This document shows, one piece after another, positions 3,044 through 47,692 of a DNA stretch of 52,165 nucleotides. The position numbers and the translations under genes are program-made. Source of the DNA: Acidobacteriota bacterium (GTDB lineage: Bacteria; Acidobacteriota; Vicinamibacteria; Vicinamibacterales; CAVVIG01); assembly GCA_003222535.1 (NCBI GenBank), contig QHWJ01000344.1:1-52165 (forward strand), written 5' to 3'. How positions within the stretch are numbered: the first letter of the stretch is position 1; the number at the start of each line of letters is the position of its first letter. The notes under the pieces are model-generated. The model did no database searches, had not been told where the DNA came from, and worked only from the letters and a program-made list of their open reading frames with translations.

Positions 3044-4291
3044 ATGATTACGAAGCCCTCCGTCCTGCTGGTTGCCGCGCTTCTGGCCCACATCCTGTCT
3101 CCGTCCCCTGCCGGCGCACAGTCGCCGGCGTCGCTCAACGGTCTCTGGGACGCTACCGTGACTGTCAGCGGCGAGATCGAAATTCCGTTCAGGTTCGAGC
3201 TCTCCGGATCCGGGTCGAGCGTTCAGGGATCCTTCTTCAACGGCGACGACAAGGTGACGTCGACCACCGGTCAGCTCGAGAACGGCTCGCTCGTGCTCAG
3301 TTTCGATGAGTACGGGACGAAGCTCGAGGCGGCGGTGAAGGACGGCCGGCTCGAAGGGCAATACACGCGCGGCACGCGCGGCGCGCCGTATCCGTTCCAG
3401 GCCAGACGGTTTGCGCCCGCGCCGGCGCGCAACACCAACATCCCGTCGATCGCCGGGGTCTGGAACGTCCAGGTGGGGAAGAGCTCGAAAGGCGAGGCCG
3501 CGTGGCAGCTCATCGTCCGCCAGTCGGGCGCCGAAGCGTCGGCCGCGATCCTGCGCATCGACGGCGACACCGGCACGCTGACCGGCACGTATCGCGACGG
3601 CAAGTTCGTGCTCAGTCATTTCTCCGGCGCACGTCCGCTTCGCCTCGAGCTCACGCCCGGTGCGGACGGCACGCTTGCGGTCGTGCAGAACAAGGACAAT
3701 CCGTTTACCGCGGTCCGCATGGAGGAGGCGAAAGCCAAAGGCCTCCCGGCACCGAGCGATCCGTCGCGCTTCACCAGCGTGAAGGATCCGACCGAGCCGT
3801 TCCGCTTCAGCTTCCCCGGCCTCGATGGAAAGCTCGTCTCCAACACGGACCCGCGCTTCCAGGGCAAGGTCGTCATCGTGAGCATCTCAGGCAGCTGGTG
3901 CCCGAACTGCCACGACGAGGCGCCCTTCCTCGCGGAGCTTTACAAGAAGTACCGCAAGCAGGGGCTCGAGATCGTGAGCCTCTCGTTCGAAGAAGAGGCG
4001 CAGCTCAAGAATCCGGTGCGGCTGCGGGCGTTCATGAAGCGCTATAACATCGACTACACCGTGCTGCTGCCCGGCGAACCGCGGCAGCTCAACGAGCTGG
4101 TTCCGCAGGGCGTCAATCTGAGCTCGTTCCCGACCTCGTTCTTACTCGGGCGAGACGGCCGGGTCCGCGGCGCGCATGCCGGATTCCCCGGCAAGGCGAG
4201 CGGAAAGTTCCACACCGAAGCGAAGGAAGAGATGACTGCGCAGGTCGAGCGCCTGCTGGCGGAGGCGCCGCAGAGGTCTTCGTCGAAGTAA
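3044..4291 (+). CDS. Secreted TlpA-like thioredoxin-fold protein
   Basis: 415 residues. A signal peptide (MITKPSVLLVAALLAHIL... cleavage near AGAQ, residue 26) is followed by about 200 residues of beta-rich sequence with two similar halves (GLWDATVTVSGEIEIPFRFEL and AGVWNVQVGKSSKGEAAWQL). The C-terminal thioredoxin/TlpA domain spans about 248-400 with the active-site motif W285-C-P-N-C289. TlpA proteins are membrane-linked or periplasmic thiol reductants, often serving cytochrome or copper-site maturation. No membrane anchor is visible beyond the signal peptide, so it may be periplasmic. AGGGAG lies seven bases before the ATG. It is downstream of a Cys-codon leader and terminator, which fits control by cysteine or thiol status. 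Confidence 0.85.
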   Translation: MITKPSVLLVAALLAHILSPSPAGAQSPASLNGLWDATVTVSGEIEIPFRFELSGSGSSVQGSFFNGDDKVTSTTGQLENGSLVLSFDEYGTKLEAAVKDGRLEGQYTRGTRGAPYPFQARRFAPAPARNTNIPSIAGVWNVQVGKSSKGEAAWQLIVRQSGAEASAAILRIDGDTGTLTGTYRDGKFVLSHFSGARPLRLELTPGADGTLAVVQNKDNPFTAVRMEEAKAKGLPAPSDPSRFTSVKDPTEPFRFSFPGLDGKLVSNTDPRFQGKVVIVSISGSWCPNCHDEAPFLAELYKKYRKQGLEIVSLSFEEEAQLKNPVRLRAFMKRYNIDYTVLLPGEPRQLNELVPQGVNLSSFPTSFLLGRDGRVRGAHAGFPGKASGKFHTEAKEEMTAQVERLLAEAPQRSSSK

Positions 4292-4294
4292 CCT

Positions 4295-5296
4295 GTGATT
4301 GATCCCGGCACGACGATCGGCTCGATCCACCTCACCATTGCGGACCTCGGCCGATCGGTCCGGTTCTACGAAGCGCACCTCGGGTTCACCGTTCATCGAC
4401 GGGACGACCGGACCGCCTGGCTTGGTGCCGGCGGTCCCGATCTGCTGGTCCTCACCCAATGCGAGAGCGCGCCGCGCGTCCGCGGCACTACCGGCCTCTA
4501 TCACTTCGCGATTCTCGTGCCCTCGCGCGCCGACCTGGCGCGGTCGCTCGGGCGTCTGGTCAACACCGACGTCGTGCTGCAGGGTGCGGCGGATCATGGC
4601 GTCAGCGAGGCACTGTACCTCGCCGATCTCGACGGCAACGGGATCGAGATCTATCGCGATCGTCCGAAAACCGGGTGGCCGTACGTCGGCGGTCACCTGC
4701 GTATGGGCGCCGACCCGCTCGACCTGGACGATCTTCTCGCGGAAAAAAGCGGAGCCGGTGACGACGCCGGGCTGGCGGCCAGCACGGTAATCGGTCATGT
4801 GCACCTCCACGTCCGGAGTCTTGCGGACGCCGAGCGCTTCTACGTCAATCTGCTCGGGTTCGATCTGATGCAGCGGTACGGGCCGAGCGCGCTGTTCGTG
4901 TCCGCCGGCGGCTATCACCATCACATCGGTCTCAACACGTGGGCCGGTGTGGGGGCGCCGCCGCCTCCGCCGGGCGCCATCGGCCTGCGCCACTTCGTCG
5001 TGAAGATGCCGAGCGCACCGGCGCTCGCCGCCACCTCGGAACGCCTAACGCGATCCTGCTGTCGATCGCCTAGACCCACGCGACCCACCCGACCTACCAG
5101 ACCCACCCGACATACCCGACCCACGCGACGTACCAAACCCACCCGACCTACCAAACCCACGCGACCTGCCCGACCCATGCGACCAAGTAGAGACAACCCG
5201 AGACAAACCGGGACGACAAAGTGCATCTTTCAGGCCGAACCAGCCCTTATACTTCAATGGGTGAAATCTGCGCCGGTCGAGGAACCCGGAAGATGA
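4295..5296 (+). CDS. Two-domain VOC ring-cleaving dioxygenase-like protein with damaged C-terminus
   Basis: The GTG at 4295 lies four bases after the previous stop. Domain 1 (residues 8-126) runs from GSIHLTIADLGRSVRFYEAHLGF to DLDGNGIEIYRDRP. Domain 2 (from about 165) starts VIGHVHLHVRSLADAERFYVNLLGF and has the second His in YHHHIGLNTW, as in CatE/catechol-2,3-dioxygenase relatives. After ATSERL (about 250) family similarity stops. The expected final block with the metal-binding Glu is absent, and the frame runs through a 9-bp repeat as PTR/PTK repeats. In the next frame the DNA at 5047-5073 reads NAILLSIA then TAG, which looks like the authentic end, so an internal deletion with a frame change is inferred. 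The enzyme is probably inactive. Confidence 0.7.
   Translation: MIDPGTTIGSIHLTIADLGRSVRFYEAHLGFTVHRRDDRTAWLGAGGPDLLVLTQCESAPRVRGTTGLYHFAILVPSRADLARSLGRLVNTDVVLQGAADHGVSEALYLADLDGNGIEIYRDRPKTGWPYVGGHLRMGADPLDLDDLLAEKSGAGDDAGLAASTVIGHVHLHVRSLADAERFYVNLLGFDLMQRYGPSALFVSAGGYHHHIGLNTWAGVGAPPPPPGAIGLRHFVVKMPSAPALAATSERLTRSCCRSPRPTRPTRPTRPTRHTRPTRRTKPTRPTKPTRPARPMRPSRDNPRQTGTTKCIFQAEPALILQWVKSAPVEEPGR
5071..5185 (+). repeat. 9-bp tandem array (ACCCACGCG/ACCTACCCG type)
   Basis: About twelve imperfect 9-bp units begin on the TAG that appears to be the original stop of the VOC gene. The unit is the reverse complement of the array at 996-1074. In the extended frame it encodes Pro-Thr-Arg/Lys triplets. 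Confidence 0.85.
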
Positions 5297-8064
5297 TGAA
5301 AAAACTGGCGGTTGCCGTTGCGGCGACCGTGCTTTTGAGCGCCGGCTTAGCAGCCCGTAGTACAACTCCAGCTGCATTCGGCTGGCGCTGCATCCCATCT
5401 CCACCCCACCGCGCTGAGAAACGCGCGGCGGGGACCCCGGAGTCTGGCTGCGTTGCTCCTCCCTCAAATACTCCCGGTATTCTCAGTCGTCGCGCCTTGC
5501 CAGCCGGGGCCCCCAGCGCGGCAGCCGCGCTGGGGTGGTCGACCGGGCGCATCGCCAGCCTCGATGCGACGCTGGACTTGCACCACGGACTGCTAGCCGC
5601 CGAACAGGCGGCAGAAGGCGGACGAGCGCAGTCGCCCGCCGCGCCGCCGAAAGGTGCGCTTGCAGGTCCCTCGACGAAGCTCGGGCCGGCCGCCTCGACG
5701 GCGATGTCGCCGGAATCGCAGAACCAGTTGATCGCCCAGTACTGCGCCACATGCCACAGCGAGCGCGGCAAGGCCGGCGGGCTGACGCTCGCGGGCTTCG
5801 ACACGGCGAACGTCGAGCAGCATCCCGACGTCGCGGAGAAGATGATCCGCAAGCTCCGCGCCGGCATGATGCCGCCGCCGAACGCGAAGCGGCCCGATCC
5901 TGCCGTCATCAAGTCGTTCGTCGACGCGCTGGAAACGAAGATCGACGCGGCCGCGGCACTCAATCCGAACCCGGGCTGGCGCCCGTTCCAGCGGCTCAAT
6001 CGCGCGGAATACCAGCATGCGGTGCGCGATCTGGTCGGGATCGACGTGGACGTGACCGCGTTCCTGCCGCCCGACACGATCAGCCGCGGATTCGATAACG
6101 TCGCCGACGTGCAGAGCTTCTCGCCCACGCTGATGGAGAGCTACCTGCGCGCGGCGAGCCAGATCAGCCGCCTCGCCGCCGGCGACCGCAACGCGAGCGC
6201 CACCTCGGTCACCTACAAAATCGGCCGCACCGCGTCACAGATGCGCCACGTCGACGGCGCCCCCATGGGCACGCGCGGCGGCATCTCGGTCGTCCACACA
6301 TTCCCGGCCGACGGCGACTACGTTGTCAAGATGTCGATGCACAACGAGCCGCTCGGGGGGATCTACGGCCGCACGTCGATGGCGACGCTGGACATCAAGG
6401 AGCAGGTCGAGGTGTCGATCAATGGCGAGCGCGCGGCGCTCATCGACCTCAACGTGCGGATGAGCGAGACCGATCCGAAGAACAGCCTCGAGATCAAGAC
6501 GGAGCCGATCCATATCGCCGCCGGTCCGCAGCGCCTTTCGGCGGCGTTCATTCAGCGGTTCGACGGTCCGCTCGACGATCTGCTGGTGCCGCTCGAGAAC
6601 ACGCTCGCCGACGTTAACATCACCTTCGGCGTCACGGCGCTGCCGCACATGCGGGACCTCACCATCCTCGGGCCGTCGAACGTGACGGGCGTGTCCGACA
6701 CGGTGAGCCGCCGGATGATCTTCACCTGCCGTCCAACGAGCTCGAAGGAAGAGGAGACGTGCGCCGCGGACATCATCAAGCGTCTGACCAGCCAGGCCTA
6801 TCGCGGCGGCGCGACCGCCGACGACATCCAGGACGCGATCTCGTTCTTCGATCAGGGCCGCAAGAGGGGAGACTTCGAGGACGGCATCCGCATGGCCCTC
6901 CAGTCGATCCTGGTGAGTCCGCGGTTTCTGTTCCGTCTCGAGCAGGCGCCAGCCGCGTCGAGGGCGGTGAACACGGCCGGGACCTATCGCATCGCCGACC
7001 AGGATCTCGCGTCACGCCTGTCGTTCTTCCTGTGGGGGACCGCGCCGGACGCCGAGCTCACGAAGGCGGCGGCCCTCGGCATGCTTCGTACGCCGATCGG
7101 CCTCGAGAAACAGGTGCGCCGCATGCTGACGGACCGCCGGTCGGAGGCCCTGTCCACGCGTTTCGCGGGCCAATGGCTGCGGCTGCAGGATCTCGAGAAG
7201 ATGCACCCGGACTACCTGCTCTATCCGCAATACGACGACACGCTGTCGCAGGCGATGAAGCGCGAGACGGAGCTGTTCTTCGACAGCATCGTCCGCGAGG
7301 ATCGTCCGGTGCTCGATCTGCTGACGGCCGACTACAGCTTCGTGAACGAGCGGCTGGCGAAGCACTACGCGATTCCGAACGTGACGGGCAGCCGATTCCG
7401 CCGGGTGACGCTGCCGGACTGCCGCCGCGGGCTGCTCGGCCAGGGCAGCATCCTGACGCTCACGTCGGTCGCCGACAGGACGTCGCCGGTCCAGCGGGGC
7501 AAGTGGGTGATGGAAGTGCTCCTCGGCTCGCCGCCACCGCCGCCGCCGCCGAACGTGCCGGCGCTGGACGAGGTGAAGGCGGCGATCGCGGGCAGGATGC
7601 TCTCGACGCGCGAGCGCATGGAGGAGCACCGCAAGAATCCCGCGTGCACCTCCTGCCACCGCGTGATCGATCCGCTCGGGCTCGCGCTGGAGAATTTCGA
7701 CGCGACCGGCGCGTGGCGAATCAAGGACAACGAGGTGCCGGTCGACTCTGCCGGCGACCTCTACGACGGCACCAAGATGGAAGGGCCAGCCGGCCTGCGG
7801 CAGGCGATCGTGAAGCATGCCGACCTGTTCCTGCTGAGCTTCACCGAGAACCTGATGACCTACGCCCTCGGACGTCGCGTCGAGTACACCGACATGCCGG
7901 CGATTCGCGCGATCATTCGCGATGCCGGGAGGAACAACCACCGCATGTCGTCGTTGATTCTGGGTGTCGTCACCAGCGCAGCGTTCCGGATGGCGAAGGC
8001 CGATGACCACCAATTGACGACCGACGCCGGCGAGGCGAAGCGTTCGAATTCGAGCGCACGCTAG
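5293..8064 (+). CDS. Exported cytochrome-like DUF1587/DUF1592/DUF1588/DUF1585 protein with in-frame repeat insertion
   Basis: 923 residues from ATG 5293 (ATGATGAAAAAA). The signal peptide MMKKLAVAVAATVLLSAGLAA is followed directly by about 83 residues encoded by a repetitive element (5347-5595). The conserved protein then resumes with a c-type haem motif CATCH (C151-H155), DUF1587 (WRPFQRLNRAEYQHAVRDL), a carbohydrate-binding-like middle, DUF1592 (DFEDGIRMALQSILVSPRFLFR), DUF1588 with a second haem-like motif ACTSCHR (C785), and DUF1585 at the end (ENLMTYALGRRVEYTDM). These proteins are common in Planctomycetes and Acidobacteriota and are thought to be periplasmic or surface haem proteins of unknown substrate. 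It is followed by its usual DUF1552 partner. Confidence 0.85.
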   Translation: MMKKLAVAVAATVLLSAGLAARSTTPAAFGWRCIPSPPHRAEKRAAGTPESGCVAPPSNTPGILSRRALPAGAPSAAAALGWSTGRIASLDATLDLHHGLLAAEQAAEGGRAQSPAAPPKGALAGPSTKLGPAASTAMSPESQNQLIAQYCATCHSERGKAGGLTLAGFDTANVEQHPDVAEKMIRKLRAGMMPPPNAKRPDPAVIKSFVDALETKIDAAAALNPNPGWRPFQRLNRAEYQHAVRDLVGIDVDVTAFLPPDTISRGFDNVADVQSFSPTLMESYLRAASQISRLAAGDRNASATSVTYKIGRTASQMRHVDGAPMGTRGGISVVHTFPADGDYVVKMSMHNEPLGGIYGRTSMATLDIKEQVEVSINGERAALIDLNVRMSETDPKNSLEIKTEPIHIAAGPQRLSAAFIQRFDGPLDDLLVPLENTLADVNITFGVTALPHMRDLTILGPSNVTGVSDTVSRRMIFTCRPTSSKEEETCAADIIKRLTSQAYRGGATADDIQDAISFFDQGRKRGDFEDGIRMALQSILVSPRFLFRLEQAPAASRAVNTAGTYRIADQDLASRLSFFLWGTAPDAELTKAAALGMLRTPIGLEKQVRRMLTDRRSEALSTRFAGQWLRLQDLEKMHPDYLLYPQYDDTLSQAMKRETELFFDSIVREDRPVLDLLTADYSFVNERLAKHYAIPNVTGSRFRRVTLPDCRRGLLGQGSILTLTSVADRTSPVQRGKWVMEVLLGSPPPPPPPNVPALDEVKAAIAGRMLSTRERMEEHRKNPACTSCHRVIDPLGLALENFDATGAWRIKDNEVPVDSAGDLYDGTKMEGPAGLRQAIVKHADLFLLSFTENLMTYALGRRVEYTDMPAIRAIIRDAGRNNHRMSSLILGVVTSAAFRMAKADDHQLTTDAGEAKRSNSSAR
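5347..5595 (+). repeat. TTAG-type inverted-repeat element, copy 1 (in frame in DUF1592 gene)
   Basis: 249 bp (83 codons exactly) run from TTAGCAGCCCGTAGTACAAC to CACCACGGACTGCTA. The ends are imperfect inverted repeats. Inside are the shared core GCTGCGTTGCTCCTCC plus AATACTCCCGGTATTCTC, and a GC hairpin CCCCAGCGCGGC/GCCGCGCTGGGG. The element lies directly after the signal-peptide codons and is open in the host frame, coding for Ala/Pro/Arg-rich sequence. See the copies at 15932, 33119 and 47449. Confidence 0.8.
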
Positions 8065-15015: not shown

Positions 15016-16158
15016 TCACTCAGGCAGCGTTGCTTCGACGCGGCGGGGATCGATACGCCACACATTGCCCGCCTCGAGGTTCGACAGCCACACGGATCCG
15101 AGCCCGACGCGGACGGCATCGCCGCCCTTGCCGGCGAACTGCTGCACGACTGCGTTGGTCGCAGGGTCGATGCGCGAGAGCGGGAACTCGAACGAGGTGA
15201 CCCAGACCGATCCTTCGCCGACGGCGATATCGCCGCCCGGGCCCGGCACCCCGACCTCGATCGTCGCGACGACCTTGTTCGTTTTCGGATCGATCCGCGA
15301 GACGCTACCATCGCCCTGATTCAGCGACCACACCGCGCCGGCGCCCGCCGCGATGAAGCGCGGCGCCTTGCCGACCGGAATCGTCTCGACGACGAGGTTG
15401 GTCTGCGGATCGACCCGCGTGACAGTATTGTTGTCCGTGCTCGTCACCCAGACGGCGTCCTCGCCGAACGCCAATCCGTACGAGCCCCGCGCCACGTAGA
15501 TCTCCGCGACGACCGCGTTCGTCGCCGGATCAAACCGCGCCAGCGTGCCTTTCGCGTCCGTCGTCATCCAGATGCTGCCGGCCCCGGCGACGATGGATCC
15601 CTCCGAGTTGCCGATGCCGGCACGGATGGTGGCCGTCACGGCGCTCGTCTTGAGATCGAGCCGCGTCACGTCCTGATCGCCGCAATTGGGGACCCAGAGG
15701 CTGCCGAACGCGGCGACCAGACCGGAGCAGGGTCGCTTGCCGACCGCGATGGTGGCGACAACCGTGTTGGCCCTGGGATCGAGGCGCGCCACGGTGTCTT
15801 TCGGCGCGTTGGAAATCCACACGTCCTCGTCGACGGCGATCCAGTCCGGCTTGCCGGGCACGGGGAAGACCGCCTCGGGCGTCAGCCGCTCGATCGGGAT
15901 CCTGACGCCGGGCGACTTGACGCCCGGCCTAGTGGCCTGTGTCGGTTGAACGAGTACTGGATTCCGGAGCGCGGCGCCCGGATGGCAAGGCGCGACGACC
16001 GAGAATACCGGGAGTATTTGAGGGAGGAGCAACGCAGCCAGCCGGGATGCCCCGCCCGGAAGGCAGTGCTCGTTCAACCGACACAGGCCACCAAGCGGGG
16101 GAGGCGCCTGCAGGAGGGCCGAGCCCAGCAACGTTGCGATGACAATCCTCATCATCAT
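15016..16158 (-). CDS. Secreted YVTN/Vgb-like beta-propeller protein with in-frame repeat insertion
   Basis: 380 residues from ATG 16158. The signal peptide MMMRIVIATLLGSALLQAPPP is followed by about 50 residues encoded by a repeat element (15932-16091). A beta-propeller of repeated blades then follows: DVWISNAPKDTVARLDPRANTVVATIAVGK, LWVPNCGDQDVTRLDLKTSAV, IWMTTDAKGTLARFDPATNAV, and so on through GSVWLSNLEAGNVWRIDPRR. The W-x-x-N/T...T-x-x-v-x-R-i-D-P rhythm is that of streptogramin-lyase-like and YVTN propellers, which act as binding scaffolds or lyases. It is divergent from the DUF1549/1553 gene with 23 bp between starts, so the two may share control. Confidence 0.85.
   Translation of the reverse strand: MMMRIVIATLLGSALLQAPPPLGGLCRLNEHCLPGGASRLAALLLPQILPVFSVVAPCHPGAALRNPVLVQPTQATRPGVKSPGVRIPIERLTPEAVFPVPGKPDWIAVDEDVWISNAPKDTVARLDPRANTVVATIAVGKRPCSGLVAAFGSLWVPNCGDQDVTRLDLKTSAVTATIRAGIGNSEGSIVAGAGSIWMTTDAKGTLARFDPATNAVVAEIYVARGSYGLAFGEDAVWVTSTDNNTVTRVDPQTNLVVETIPVGKAPRFIAAGAGAVWSLNQGDGSVSRIDPKTNKVVATIEVGVPGPGGDIAVGEGSVWVTSFEFPLSRIDPATNAVVQQFAGKGGDAVRVGLGSVWLSNLEAGNVWRIDPRRVEATLPE
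15932..16091 (-). repeat. Inverted-repeat element sharing the TTAG-family core (copy 2, in frame in propeller gene)
   Basis: Perfect 23-bp terminal inverted repeats (15932-15954 GTGGCCTGTGTCGGTTGAAC..., and 16069-16091) bound 160 bp. On the minus strand the interior reads GGCTGCGTTGCTCCTCCCTC, AATACTCCCGGTATTCTCGG and TCGTCGCGCCTTGCC, the same core as copies 1, 3 and 4, but the ends differ. It lies just after the signal-peptide codons of the propeller gene and stays open in that frame. Confidence 0.8.
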
Positions 16159-32778: not shown

Positions 32779-33135
32779 GTGGAGATCGAAATGCTGTCAG
32801 GCGATTACTCGAATGACGACCTCGAGGCGAGTGCGCAGGGACGCATCGCGTTCTGGCGCGGTCGCCCGATTTGGACGAACCCGCTGACCGGAGAAGCCGC
32901 CCGGGAATGGACCGCCGGGTGGAAGCACGCACTCGGCGAGCTCTCCAGCCGGCGCGGTGGACGGATGTTGTCGGCGTCGGCGACAGACAACGCCGAGTGG
33001 CACACGGTGCTCGCCCTCTATCGACCGGACGATGTGCAGGCGATCCCGAGCAATCGCAGAACGGTCAAGAAAAGGGTGCGATCGCGAGCCGGCTCGGGCG
33101 CCCGCCCAGAGCTGCAATTTAGCAGCCCGCGGTGA
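32779..33135 (+). CDS. Rmf-like (ribosome modulation factor domain) small protein
   Basis: 118 residues from GTG 32779. The centre, AQGRIAFWRGRPIWTNPLTGEAAREWTAGWKHALGEL, follows the Rmf pattern (G-R-x-A-x-x-x-G ... N-P ... R-x-W-x-x-G-W-x-x-A). Rmf proteins bind idle 70S ribosomes and cause dimerisation in stationary phase, although many distant members have no tested role. The Arg-rich tail after about residue 95 (RRTVKKRVRSRAG) could bind RNA. The last codons and TGA stop come from the left end of an inverted-repeat element (33119), so the original C-terminus may have been replaced. Confidence 0.5.
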   Translation: MEIEMLSGDYSNDDLEASAQGRIAFWRGRPIWTNPLTGEAAREWTAGWKHALGELSSRRGGRMLSASATDNAEWHTVLALYRPDDVQAIPSNRRTVKKRVRSRAGSGARPELQFSSPR

Positions 33136-33403
33136 AAGTCCGGCTGCATTCGGGGTCCCCAGCGCGGCTGCCGCGCTGGGGACCCCGTTCGGCCGGCGAT
33201 GCATCCCCGCTCCACCCCAACGCGGCTGCCGCGTTGGGGATCCCGGGCTGGCTGCGTTGCTCCTCTCTCAAATATTCCCGATATTGCCACCCCACCGCGC
33301 AAACTACGCGCGGCGGGAGCCCCGGTTCTCGGTCGTCGCGCCTTGCCATCGGGGCGCCTCGCCGGCCTCGGTGCGACGCCGGGACTCTTACCACGGCTGC
33401 TAA
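33119..33403 (+). repeat. TTAG-type inverted-repeat element, copy 3
   Basis: 285 bp from TTAGCAGCCCGCGGTGAAAG to CTTACCACGGCTGCTAA. It holds two GC hairpins (GGGGTCCCCAGCGCGGC/GCCGCGCTGGGGACCCC, and CCCCAACGCGG/CCGCGTTGGGG) and the core GGCTGCGTTGCTCCTC plus AATATTCCCGATATTG. Its first bases supply the TGA stop of the Rmf-like gene. Confidence 0.8.
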
Positions 33404-46523: not shown

Positions 46524-46673
46524 TTACCGACAGCCTGGGTGCATGCAGTCGCAGCGCAGCTCGATCTTGTCGCGGGCTTCCTTGCAGTGCTCGCTGCAGT
46601 ATTTCCCGTGGGGTCCCCCTTTTTCGACCATGCACGAGCAGGCGGGGTGGGCGCACTTGACTGTTTCCGCCAT
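46524..46673 (-). CDS. Bacterial metallothionein-like protein (49 aa)
   Basis: 49 residues from ATG 46673 with GAGGAGG seven bases upstream. Eight Cys (positions 7, 12, 14, 26, 30, 41, 43, 48) and several His are spaced as in SmtA-type metallothioneins: VKCAHPACSCMVEKGGPHGK, YCSEHCKEA, then RCDCMHPGC. Proteins of this family bind Zn, Cd or Cu in a thiolate cluster in the cytosol and buffer metal. A treble-clef-like YCSEHC block is typical. It is divergent from the CDP-alcohol phosphatidyltransferase gene with 80 bp between starts. No SmtB/ArsR regulator is nearby. Confidence 0.85.
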   Translation of the reverse strand: MAETVKCAHPACSCMVEKGGPHGKYCSEHCKEARDKIELRCDCMHPGCR

Positions 46674-46753
46674 TGCGAGCCTCCTCACCGCGAACTCTAC
46701 TCCTGATTGAGCCGGTCGGCTCGCCGTTTTCGCATCCCCACGTGGAGGCCAAT

Positions 46754-47452
46754 ATGGACCACGTGCGCGACCACCGGAGCCTGCTCGCATCCCCCGAAAA
46801 ACAGCTGCTGATCGCGATCGCCCGACGACTCCCACCCTGGGTGAGCTCGGACCAGCTGACCTTGATCGCGCTGATGTCGATGCCCGCGGCGGGACTTGCG
46901 TTCGCAGCGATCCGGGCCGCGCCGTGGATCGCCGCCGCTTTCATGCTCGCGCTCGCCGCGAACTGGTTCGGCGACAGCCTCGACGGCACGCTGGCGCGCG
47001 TCCGCAGTCAATCGCGTCCCCGCTACGGTTATTACGTGGATCACGTCATCGATCTCGCCGGTACGGCCGCGCTCGTCTCCGGCATGGCGGCATCGGGCTT
47101 GATGCATCCGCCAATCGCGATGGCGCTCCTGGCCGCGTACTTCCTCGTCTCTGCCGAAACGTACCTGGCCACTCACGCCGTCGGCGTATTTCGCCTCTCG
47201 TTCGCCGGCGTGGGCCCGACCGAGCTGCGCATCCTGCTCGCGGCCGGCGCGGTCTACGTTTCGAGGCATCCGTGGGTTGACATCGCCGGCCAGCCCGCGC
47301 TGCTGCTGGACGTCAGCGGGCTGATCGCGATCGTCGGGCTCGTGATCGTCTTCATCGTCTCGGCGGCCCGCAACACGCGCGCGCTTTATCTGGCGGAACC
47401 GCTGCCTCGCCGCGCCGAGCCGTTACAAGGGGTTGTTCGGTCGTGTCCTTAG
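46754..47452 (+). CDS. CDP-alcohol phosphatidyltransferase family membrane protein
   Basis: 232 residues from ATG 46754, preceded by GTGGAGG. The signature D-x2-DG-x2-AR-x(8,9)-G-x3-D-x3-D is present as GDSLDGTLARVRSQ...YGYYVDHVID. About six membrane helices follow (for example WIAAAFMLALAANWF, PIAMALLAAYFLVSA, LIAIVGLVIVFIVSA). Such enzymes join CDP-diacylglycerol or a CDP-alcohol to a second alcohol in phospholipid synthesis. The acceptor is unknown, and the sequence is nearer to the short unclassified members than to PgsA or PssA. The TAG stop (47450-47452) is the start of a TTAG-type repeat element, so the last residues may be shortened. Confidence 0.85.
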   Translation: MDHVRDHRSLLASPEKQLLIAIARRLPPWVSSDQLTLIALMSMPAAGLAFAAIRAAPWIAAAFMLALAANWFGDSLDGTLARVRSQSRPRYGYYVDHVIDLAGTAALVSGMAASGLMHPPIAMALLAAYFLVSAETYLATHAVGVFRLSFAGVGPTELRILLAAGAVYVSRHPWVDIAGQPALLLDVSGLIAIVGLVIVFIVSAARNTRALYLAEPLPRRAEPLQGVVRSCP

Positions 47453-47692
47453 CAGCCCGTGGTGAAAGTCTGGCTGCATTCGGGGCCCCCAGCGCGGCTG
47501 CCGCGCTGGGGACCCCGTTCGACGGGCGATGCATCCCCGCCCCACCCCAACGCGGCTGCCGCGTTGGGGACCCCGGCGGGGGCTGCGTTGCTCCTCCTTC
47601 AAATACTGCCGGTATTCTCAGTCGTCGCGCCTTGCCCGCGGGGCGCCTCGCCCGTCTCGGTGCGACGCCAGACTTTCACCACGGGCTGCTCG
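47449..47692 (+). repeat. TTAG-type inverted-repeat element, copy 4
   Basis: The best-preserved copy: TTAGCAGCCCGTGGTGAAAG at the left and CTTTCACCACGGGCTGCT at the right form a perfect 20-bp terminal inverted repeat (AGCAGCCC...AAAGTC/GACTTT...GGGCTGCT). Inside are the CCAGCGCGGCTGCCGCGCTGG hairpin and its CCCCAACGCGG counterpart, and the core GCTGCGTTGCTCCTCC/AATACTGCCGGTATTC. It begins on the TAG stop of the upstream gene. Confidence 0.85.

Follow-up and report, generated by a model that had tools for sequence, protein, structure and literature searches.

A palindromic, very probably mobile repeat family of an Acidobacteriota genome that appears to be read in frame in exported proteins

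The stretch of DNA studied here (the window; 52,165 bp, contig QHWJ01000344.1, contig 62 of the 450 in the 8.06-Mb Acidobacteriota assembly GCA_003222535.1, order Vicinamibacterales) carries four copies of an inverted-repeat element. A reading made from the sequence alone had claimed these four copies, and indeed all of them exist and the core is common to all. Their boundaries were reset using the flanking 4-mers. Copy 1 (5351-5592, plus strand, 242 bp) has the terminal repeats that we call class A; its left flank is TTAG (5347-5350), while its right flank differs (CTAG, 5593-5596). The net insertion is 246 bp, or 82 codons; the 249 bp (83 codons) assigned to it before include part of both flanks. 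Its 56-nt core lies at 5446-5501 on the plus strand, with an exact match to our two-box core pattern at 5447-5501, and a GC hairpin of the nested module type, CCCCAGCGCGGC/GCCGCGCTGGGG, lies at 5511-5535. The copy sits in the signal-peptide region of host gene 1 (5296-8064, plus strand), which encodes an exported protein of the DUF1592 family (PSD/PSCyt) with PSD2, PSD3, PSD4, PSD5 and PSCyt3 domains. A degenerate 9/18-bp tandem repeat, GACCCACCCGACCTACCA, occurs in 5.3 copies upstream of this gene (5073-5177).

Copy 2 (15933-16090, minus strand, 158 bp) has other ends (class B), flanks TTGG/CTAG on the minus strand and an exact core at 15984-16038 (minus strand). It lies directly after the signal peptide of the beta-propeller-like protein encoded by host gene 2 (15016-16158, minus strand; DUF6923, with Vgb_lyase below the cut-off in a domain scan from 16167). 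The frame of host gene 1 is open across copy 1, and copy 2 is likewise open, as had been stated. Copy 3 (33123-33399, plus strand, class A, 277 bp, with nested hairpin modules; flanks TTAG at 33119-33122 and CTAA at 33400-33403) has an interrupted core and is not among the 16 exact matches of the core pattern in its own assembly, where the reversed control gave 0. Copy 4 (47453-47688, plus strand, class A) measures 236 bp, that is, 158 + 2 x 39, with an exact core at 47582-47636 (plus strand) and flanks TTAG at 47449-47452 and CTCG at 47689-47692; the TAG that closes the open reading frame (ORF) at 46673-47452 lies within its left flank. Terminal inverted repeats shared by all four had also been claimed. 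Copy 2, however, ends in TGGCCTGTGTCGGTTGAACG and the others in the CAGCCCGTGGTGAAAGTC type, so it is the core, not the ends, that unites the window copies.

To judge whether the segments in the two hosts are original parts of these proteins, homologues were compared. The N-terminus of host 1 reads MMKKLAVAVAATVLLSAGL / AARSTT...GLL / AAEQAAEGG (slashes in the region of the element limits), and its near homologues in genomes G005, G009 and G020, at 80-81% identity, pass from leader to mature protein without the segment (MKKLAVVAAVAALLSAGAAGQQ in G005, MKNLAVAAAAAALLGSGVAAQQ in G009). Thirty loci were fetched for host 1, and N-termini were shown for 22, our own included; by eye, the segment occurs in 0 of the 21 others. 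Host 2 reads MMMRIVIATLLGSALLQAPPPLG-element-GVRIPIERLTPEAVF in the window and MMKSVMASLLGFVLMQPVPPPPKPGVAMPGVKLPIARLQPEAVF, without the element, in G020 (83% identity); the homologue in G017 also lacks the element but has an altered leader, and the region was not displayed for two further loci. An ancestral N-terminal domain of exported proteins, which had been named as the outcome that would overturn the sequence-only reading, could account for in-frame reading in several unrelated exported proteins. We reject it and regard it as virtually excluded: close homologues of both hosts lack the segment, there is no codon-position bias, and 62 of 91 insertions of the family described below carry no coding call.

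The own genome and its relatives gave 144 core matches. Of these, 45 without both class-A ends at no more than 5 mismatches were left out; among the remaining 99, one was left out for short flank or repeated context, which leaves 98 clean class-A copies. They are short (158-278 bp) and hold no transposase gene. The commonest length is exactly 158 bp (58/98), followed by 197 bp (12) and 236 bp (6), which correspond to 158 bp plus one or two 39-bp modules. The nested GC hairpins reported before are thus present, but they are not part of the 158-bp unit, being 39-bp modules in its loops. The module hairpin, a near-palindrome, has about 90 genomic sites of its own (91 matches on one strand, 88 on the other) and is present 26 times inside class-A copies, at three loop positions; at one of them TTCG flanks the module on both sides (read by eye), which looks like a duplication of the module's own.

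Many other genomic copies of the core, which the first reading had required, were found in the own genome and in relatives. A 160-nt class-A query returned 91 BLAST pieces in the own genome, some of them the two arms of one palindrome, and an 18-nt terminal motif occurs at 204 places with at most 3 mismatches, compared with 35 for the reversed control, from which we infer about 85 copies or remnants. Twenty further own-genome loci were read: some carry more modules, and six are short forms (55-132 bp) without the core that look like internal deletions. At one locus (L309, 437-475), a shrunken class-A remnant lies in frame near the start of an ORF that by eye resembles a PQQ dehydrogenase, as if it had decayed after entry into a leader.

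Evidence for mobility comes from the flanks of the 98 clean copies. The 4-mers on either side are identical in 41 of them, where 11.7 are expected and the observed count was reached in 0 of 5000 permutations, and the target consensus is YTAR, repeated as a 4-bp direct repeat. Among the 65 copies with a non-palindromic left 4-mer, 20 pairs are identical and 2 reverse-complementary; the duplication is therefore direct. Direct repeats also surround copies with other ends, for example CTGG/CTGG on a chromosome titled Binatia (L138). YTAR itself appears to be a rare motif here, with 391 sites counted over 269,493 bases of flank. The sequence-only reading had called for a search for target duplications and had left the choice between a foldback RNA and a miniature inverted-repeat transposable element (MITE): the 4-bp duplications support a MITE-like nature, while no Rfam family matches at the elements in the window or in the 16 cross-phylum loci scanned. 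Based on these findings, we consider it very probable that the segments arose by insertion of a palindromic, MITE-like mobile element, which enters YTAR-like sites with a 4-bp duplication.

The palindrome itself was analyzed by thinning the 58 copies of 158 bp to 24 non-redundant ones, in which 93.5% of cells are paired. Two-sided changes number 104 over 32 of the 63 pairs, against a shuffle mean of 31 and maximum of 41, which related copies exceed easily; registers slid by 1-4 give at most 16, a comparison that favours the real register because the structure was derived from the consensus of the same copies. For 103 cores from across phyla, a single register gives the best pairing of the helix adjoining the core, and the two arms within an element match with a median local score of 20.5, compared with 9.5 for arms of different elements. 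Stems of at least 6 pairs form in 81 of 120 inner stretches, where shuffles predict about 21. The arms stay complementary, and the palindrome is maintained.

Such strong covariation, together with conserved internal-loop sequences and a core in many phyla, would also be expected of a structured RNA that is conserved because it serves the host, as a leader, a terminator or a small RNA, and is not mobile. We consider this improbable in view of the target duplications, the copies inside coding frames and the lack of the core in 31 of 60 genomes of the order and 136 of 149 of the phylum. Moreover, Rfam gave 0 matches in the window and none at the elements in 16 of the 116 cross-phylum loci, where its two matches, to a riboswitch and to a tRNA, lie apart from the core. 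On a contig titled Elusimicrobia (L097), a 2dG-II purine riboswitch match (4109-4180, minus strand, 77.2 bits) lies about 95 bp from a core copy.

We then considered how the element fits into genes. The sense frame of class A that starts at the YTA codon (phase 0) is free of stops in 97 of 98 copies and the antisense frame in 74, and the phase-0 peptide begins Leu-Ala-Ala-Arg-Gly-Glu-Ser-Leu-Ala. Among the 24 non-redundant copies, phase 0 is open in 24 in sense and 18 in antisense, compared with about 0.49 per frame in shuffles, although related copies do not amount to 24 independent trials. Six of the 24 are open in phase 1 and, inside the element, 22 in phase 2; phase 2 nevertheless meets a stop because the target TAR is itself an in-frame stop codon. 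A basic class-A insertion adds 162 bp, or 54 codons, and each nested module 13 more. The open frames suggest that the element is read in frame in exported hosts, and class A is permissive by its sequence; nothing indicates that the peptide is selected.

With a home-made signal-peptide detector run on rebuilt empty sites (95 of the 98 copies had enough flank), 17 of 95 class-A insertions fall in or next to signal peptides, compared with 13 of 207 control YTAR sites from the same loci (Fisher p=0.003), and 13 of the 17 are in phase 0. Insertions on the stop codon of a coding-like ORF account for 19 of the 91 copies with enough flank for a stricter coding classifier, compared with 19 of 187 controls (p=0.024). 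A Pfam match above the cut-off was found in 18 of 20 host ORFs, which had been chosen for looking like hosts. These included PSD/DUF1592 twice, a propeller, LRR, metallo-beta-lactamase, amidohydrolase, BD-FAE, an outer-membrane barrel, DUF1028 twice, M14, FkbM, FG-GAP, a Na/H exchanger, abhydrolase, SpoIID, cytochrome c and radical SAM; L214 gave no match and L246 only a sub-threshold BNR. Because the element lies inside the FkbM domain at L225 (profile 1-166 spread over residues 112-324) and after the radical SAM domain at L217, these two are not leader cases. The two DUF1028 proteins (L043 and L229, from genomes G000 and G017) each have a class-A element near the N-terminus, perhaps through independent insertions into one family.

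The sequences thus show an inverted repeat of 158 bp with a conserved 56-nt centre, with or without 39-bp modules in its loops, that inserts at YTAR-like sites with a 4-bp direct duplication; in our working model it would be moved in trans by an enzyme that makes 4-bp staggered cuts. By its sequence, a class-A copy entering a gene adds 162 bp with the frame from the YTA codon left open; on a TAR stop, the stop is kept in the left duplicate, and the third phase meets a stop in most copies. With YTAR scarce and selection removing most insertions within genes, the survivors would be those in intergenic DNA, at stop codons or in signal peptides, the latter presumably because an N-terminal extension is tolerated there. 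Survival bias, not targeting, would thus explain the placement. The Leu-Ala-Ala-Arg encoded by the left end may serve as a cleavage site, in which case the host may keep a working leader.

Several observations weigh against this reading. Identical 4-mers are missing from 57 of the 98 copies, possibly through decay, and from all four window copies, so that target duplication rests on the whole family. Reverse-complementary 4-mers are also in excess (23/98, 11.9 expected), with a positional score reached in 3 of 5000 permutations; most of this excess is due to the palindromes CTAG and TTAA, which satisfy both tests. Besides the home-made detector with its same-locus controls and the choice of the 20 ORFs, one detector match (L204, minus strand) resembles an inner membrane segment, some copies are classed differently by the detector and the stricter classifier, with L043 called a stop codon on the other strand, and the stricter classifier finds no excess of phase-0 coding insertions (6/91 compared with 10/187, p=0.78), which led us to reject a general enrichment of in-frame coding insertions. 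General frame neutrality is likewise rejected, as non-class-A copies are open in phase 0 in 11 of 17 cases, near the shuffled 0.51, and, by our own count, class-A lengths outside 158+39k keep the frame at about the chance rate. Selection on the element peptide is rejected too, since codon positions vary alike (mean entropy 0.28, 0.30 and 0.31). The claim of an element-encoded peptide in host proteins holds for the open frame, and the peptide carries no codon-position sign of selection; more broadly, a mobile palindrome read in frame in exported proteins is retained, without shared ends or peptide selection. Four features go beyond the sequence-only reading: the 158-bp length kept with different kinds of ends, the identity of the nested hairpins as modules, insertion onto stop codons and the presence of the core in further phyla.

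The search for a mobilising enzyme also belongs on this side. No autonomous partner was found at 100 of the 204 terminal-motif places, which were those listed, nor at the 20 further own-genome loci, and three wide-spaced terminal-motif pairs read for ORFs held no transposase recognised by eye. For the end type of genome G031, the 15 terminal-motif matches resolve into five pairs of 158 bp, one pair of 40 bp and three lone sites with 2 mismatches, and no two ends enclose a long element. In the own genome, an autonomous copy could have escaped notice, since 100 of 204 places were listed and repeats break the assembly. The own assembly has two DDE_Tnp_1 (PF01609) genes and one Y1_Tnp gene; the exact end motifs are absent at both DDE loci, one of which begins at a contig end, and at the Y1 locus. 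Repetitive extragenic palindromes (REPs) moved by a Y1 (HUH) transposase, the REP-associated tyrosine transposase (RAYT), would fit the hairpins, the many copies and this Y1_Tnp gene. Given the target duplication, the 158-bp unit and the different inverted repeat at the Y1 locus, we think this origin improbable. The repeat there, GTGGCGTCCGGCTTCAGCCGGACC, surrounds the genome's single Y1_Tnp match (L275) and is perhaps that gene's own REP.

The ends of the family were compared next. Copy 2 and many relatives have ends seemingly unrelated to class A (TGTCCCGTCCC, TCCCCTGGAACC, TACTGCGTTTC, TGGCGTGTCCA, TGCCCCGATTC, GAACCCATC); terminal repeats are alike within class A, by the way copies were selected, and differ across the core-sharing family. 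Of 46 copies first taken as non-class-A, 12 match class A at one end with no more than 5 mismatches, and the other 34, all from the order, were used. In these, 15 of the 21 YTAR sites found within 140 nt to the left of the core are 50-51 nt from it, and 18 of 22 on the right are 51-52 nt from it; class A itself peaks at 50 (left) and 52 (right), and all five full pairs of the G031 end type give 158 bp. Within the order, then, the 56-nt core is common to elements with different ends, which lie about 51 nt off. Outside it the rule holds in part: around the 75 cross-phylum cores that lack class-A ends, 11 of the sites on the left are 50-51 nt away and 18 of those on the right 50-52 nt, but another 11 on the left stand at 126 nt and 14 on the right at 45 nt. 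Ten loci have both of the latter distances (L078, L080, L090, L101, L117, L142, L158, L171, L189 and L191), and the Burkholderiales form therefore has a different, asymmetric layout. Its right end (L090, L158, L171, L177) is CTAGGATGA, near a possible start codon of the next gene.

One may speculate that the mobile unit is specified by its centre, with an enzyme present in many phyla recognising the core and cutting about 51 nt to either side with a 4-bp stagger. The core, two unpaired boxes between covarying helices, would be recognised as a folded strand or as a dyad, and the 51 nt on each side of the 158-bp form would span roughly five helical turns. The arms could then drift or be replaced while staying complementary, and since 158 + 4 is a whole number of codons, the ability to live inside genes would be a by-product. 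We regard this as rather unlikely; the Burkholderiales sites at 126 and 45 nt weaken it, and constant length is explained equally well by descent without indels as by a measuring enzyme. The IS5-like group of insertion sequences is known for 4-bp YTAR duplications. An ordinary MITE of such a sequence, whose transposase reads the ends while the core is an inert ancestral stretch and the 158 bp reflect descent without indels, accordingly matches the duplications observed here. The weak likeness by eye of the A and B ends (CAGCCCGT / TGTCCCGT), the two DDE_Tnp_1 genes and a Burkholderiales form that keeps the core with other spacing point the same way. However, within the order the ends vary around a constant centre and length, whereas a usual MITE shows the opposite, the G031 matches enclose no long element, and the exact end motifs looked for are absent from both DDE loci, one of them at a contig end, so that we give this origin an even chance.

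The core was found in 29 of 60 genomes searched within the order and in 13 of 149 drawn from the phylum, our own included in both. A scan of named genomes gave at least 116 stretches with the core; letters conserved in the scan pattern arise from the search itself, unlike the stems and the spacing. Titles from the 80 listed include Acidobacteria, Gemmatimonadota, Pseudomonadota, Deltaproteobacteria, Elusimicrobia, Omnitrophota, Nitrospirae, Myxococcota, Binatia, Eisenbacteria, Verrucomicrobia and an actinobacterium, about a dozen phylum-level names among the matches listed. There, records outside Pseudomonadota are metagenome bins and may be misbinned: one titled Bifidobacterium is doubtful, and a Desulfobulbus locus (L080) has the Burkholderiales form. 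Some of the bins are recorded as entire chromosomes (Longimicrobiales, Binatia). Listed isolates with the core are Variovorax, Denitromonas, Ramlibacter, Paucibacter, Pelomonas, Methylocaldum and a Zoogloeaceae strain. Among carriers, the core was found in 0 phage records and 0 viral contigs and, in plasmids, only as one 26-nt match at E=0.3; the Burkholderiales form occurs in 2 of 72,556 plasmids.

The best-known mobile palindromes read in frame are those of the intracellular genus Rickettsia, whose genomes are reduced. Our data extend them to large genomes of what appears to be a free-living order, where they repeatedly enter leader peptides and are a plausible source of new N-termini on exported proteins. 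MITE families, moreover, usually have their ends in common; here the core is shared and the differing ends stand at a set distance from it, which reverses this logic and points to a further mobilising enzyme. The core also offers a simple handle for annotating repeats otherwise seen as spurious ORFs or broken contigs. The literature searched (figures were not searchable) gave no description of this family, and core strings matched only unrelated titles.

As far as the available parts of the sources go, the nearest systems compare as follows. Rickettsia palindromic elements (RPEs) are about 150 bp long, each with an ORF, and lie in frame in unrelated genes (PMC10969869); the present family is likewise a palindrome in frame within unrelated coding genes but, judged by their description, differs in its YTAR duplication, 158-bp unit, nested modules, leader-peptide excess and core in other phyla. 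With Chunjie and other bacterial MITEs it shares the size range, inverted and direct repeats and truncated derivatives (PMC10969869), whereas it is set apart from the Chunjie type, as described, by being united by centre and length. For the Coxiella QMITEs, of which QMITE2 is about 190 bp at full length with truncated copies and QMITE1 has an ORF, the excerpt makes no mention of leader peptides or of a shared core with differing ends (PMC10969869). GTAG- and CGTC-tagged REPs are palindromic repeats that also occur in several phyla, and RPE-4 and RPE-6 are listed among the CGTC repeats (PMC3733652); they are described as 20-40 bp long with an unpaired terminal tag, in contrast to the 158-bp unit and target duplications seen here. 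The family is thus nearest in kind to MITEs and works like RPEs, and we assign it neither as an RPE nor as a REP.

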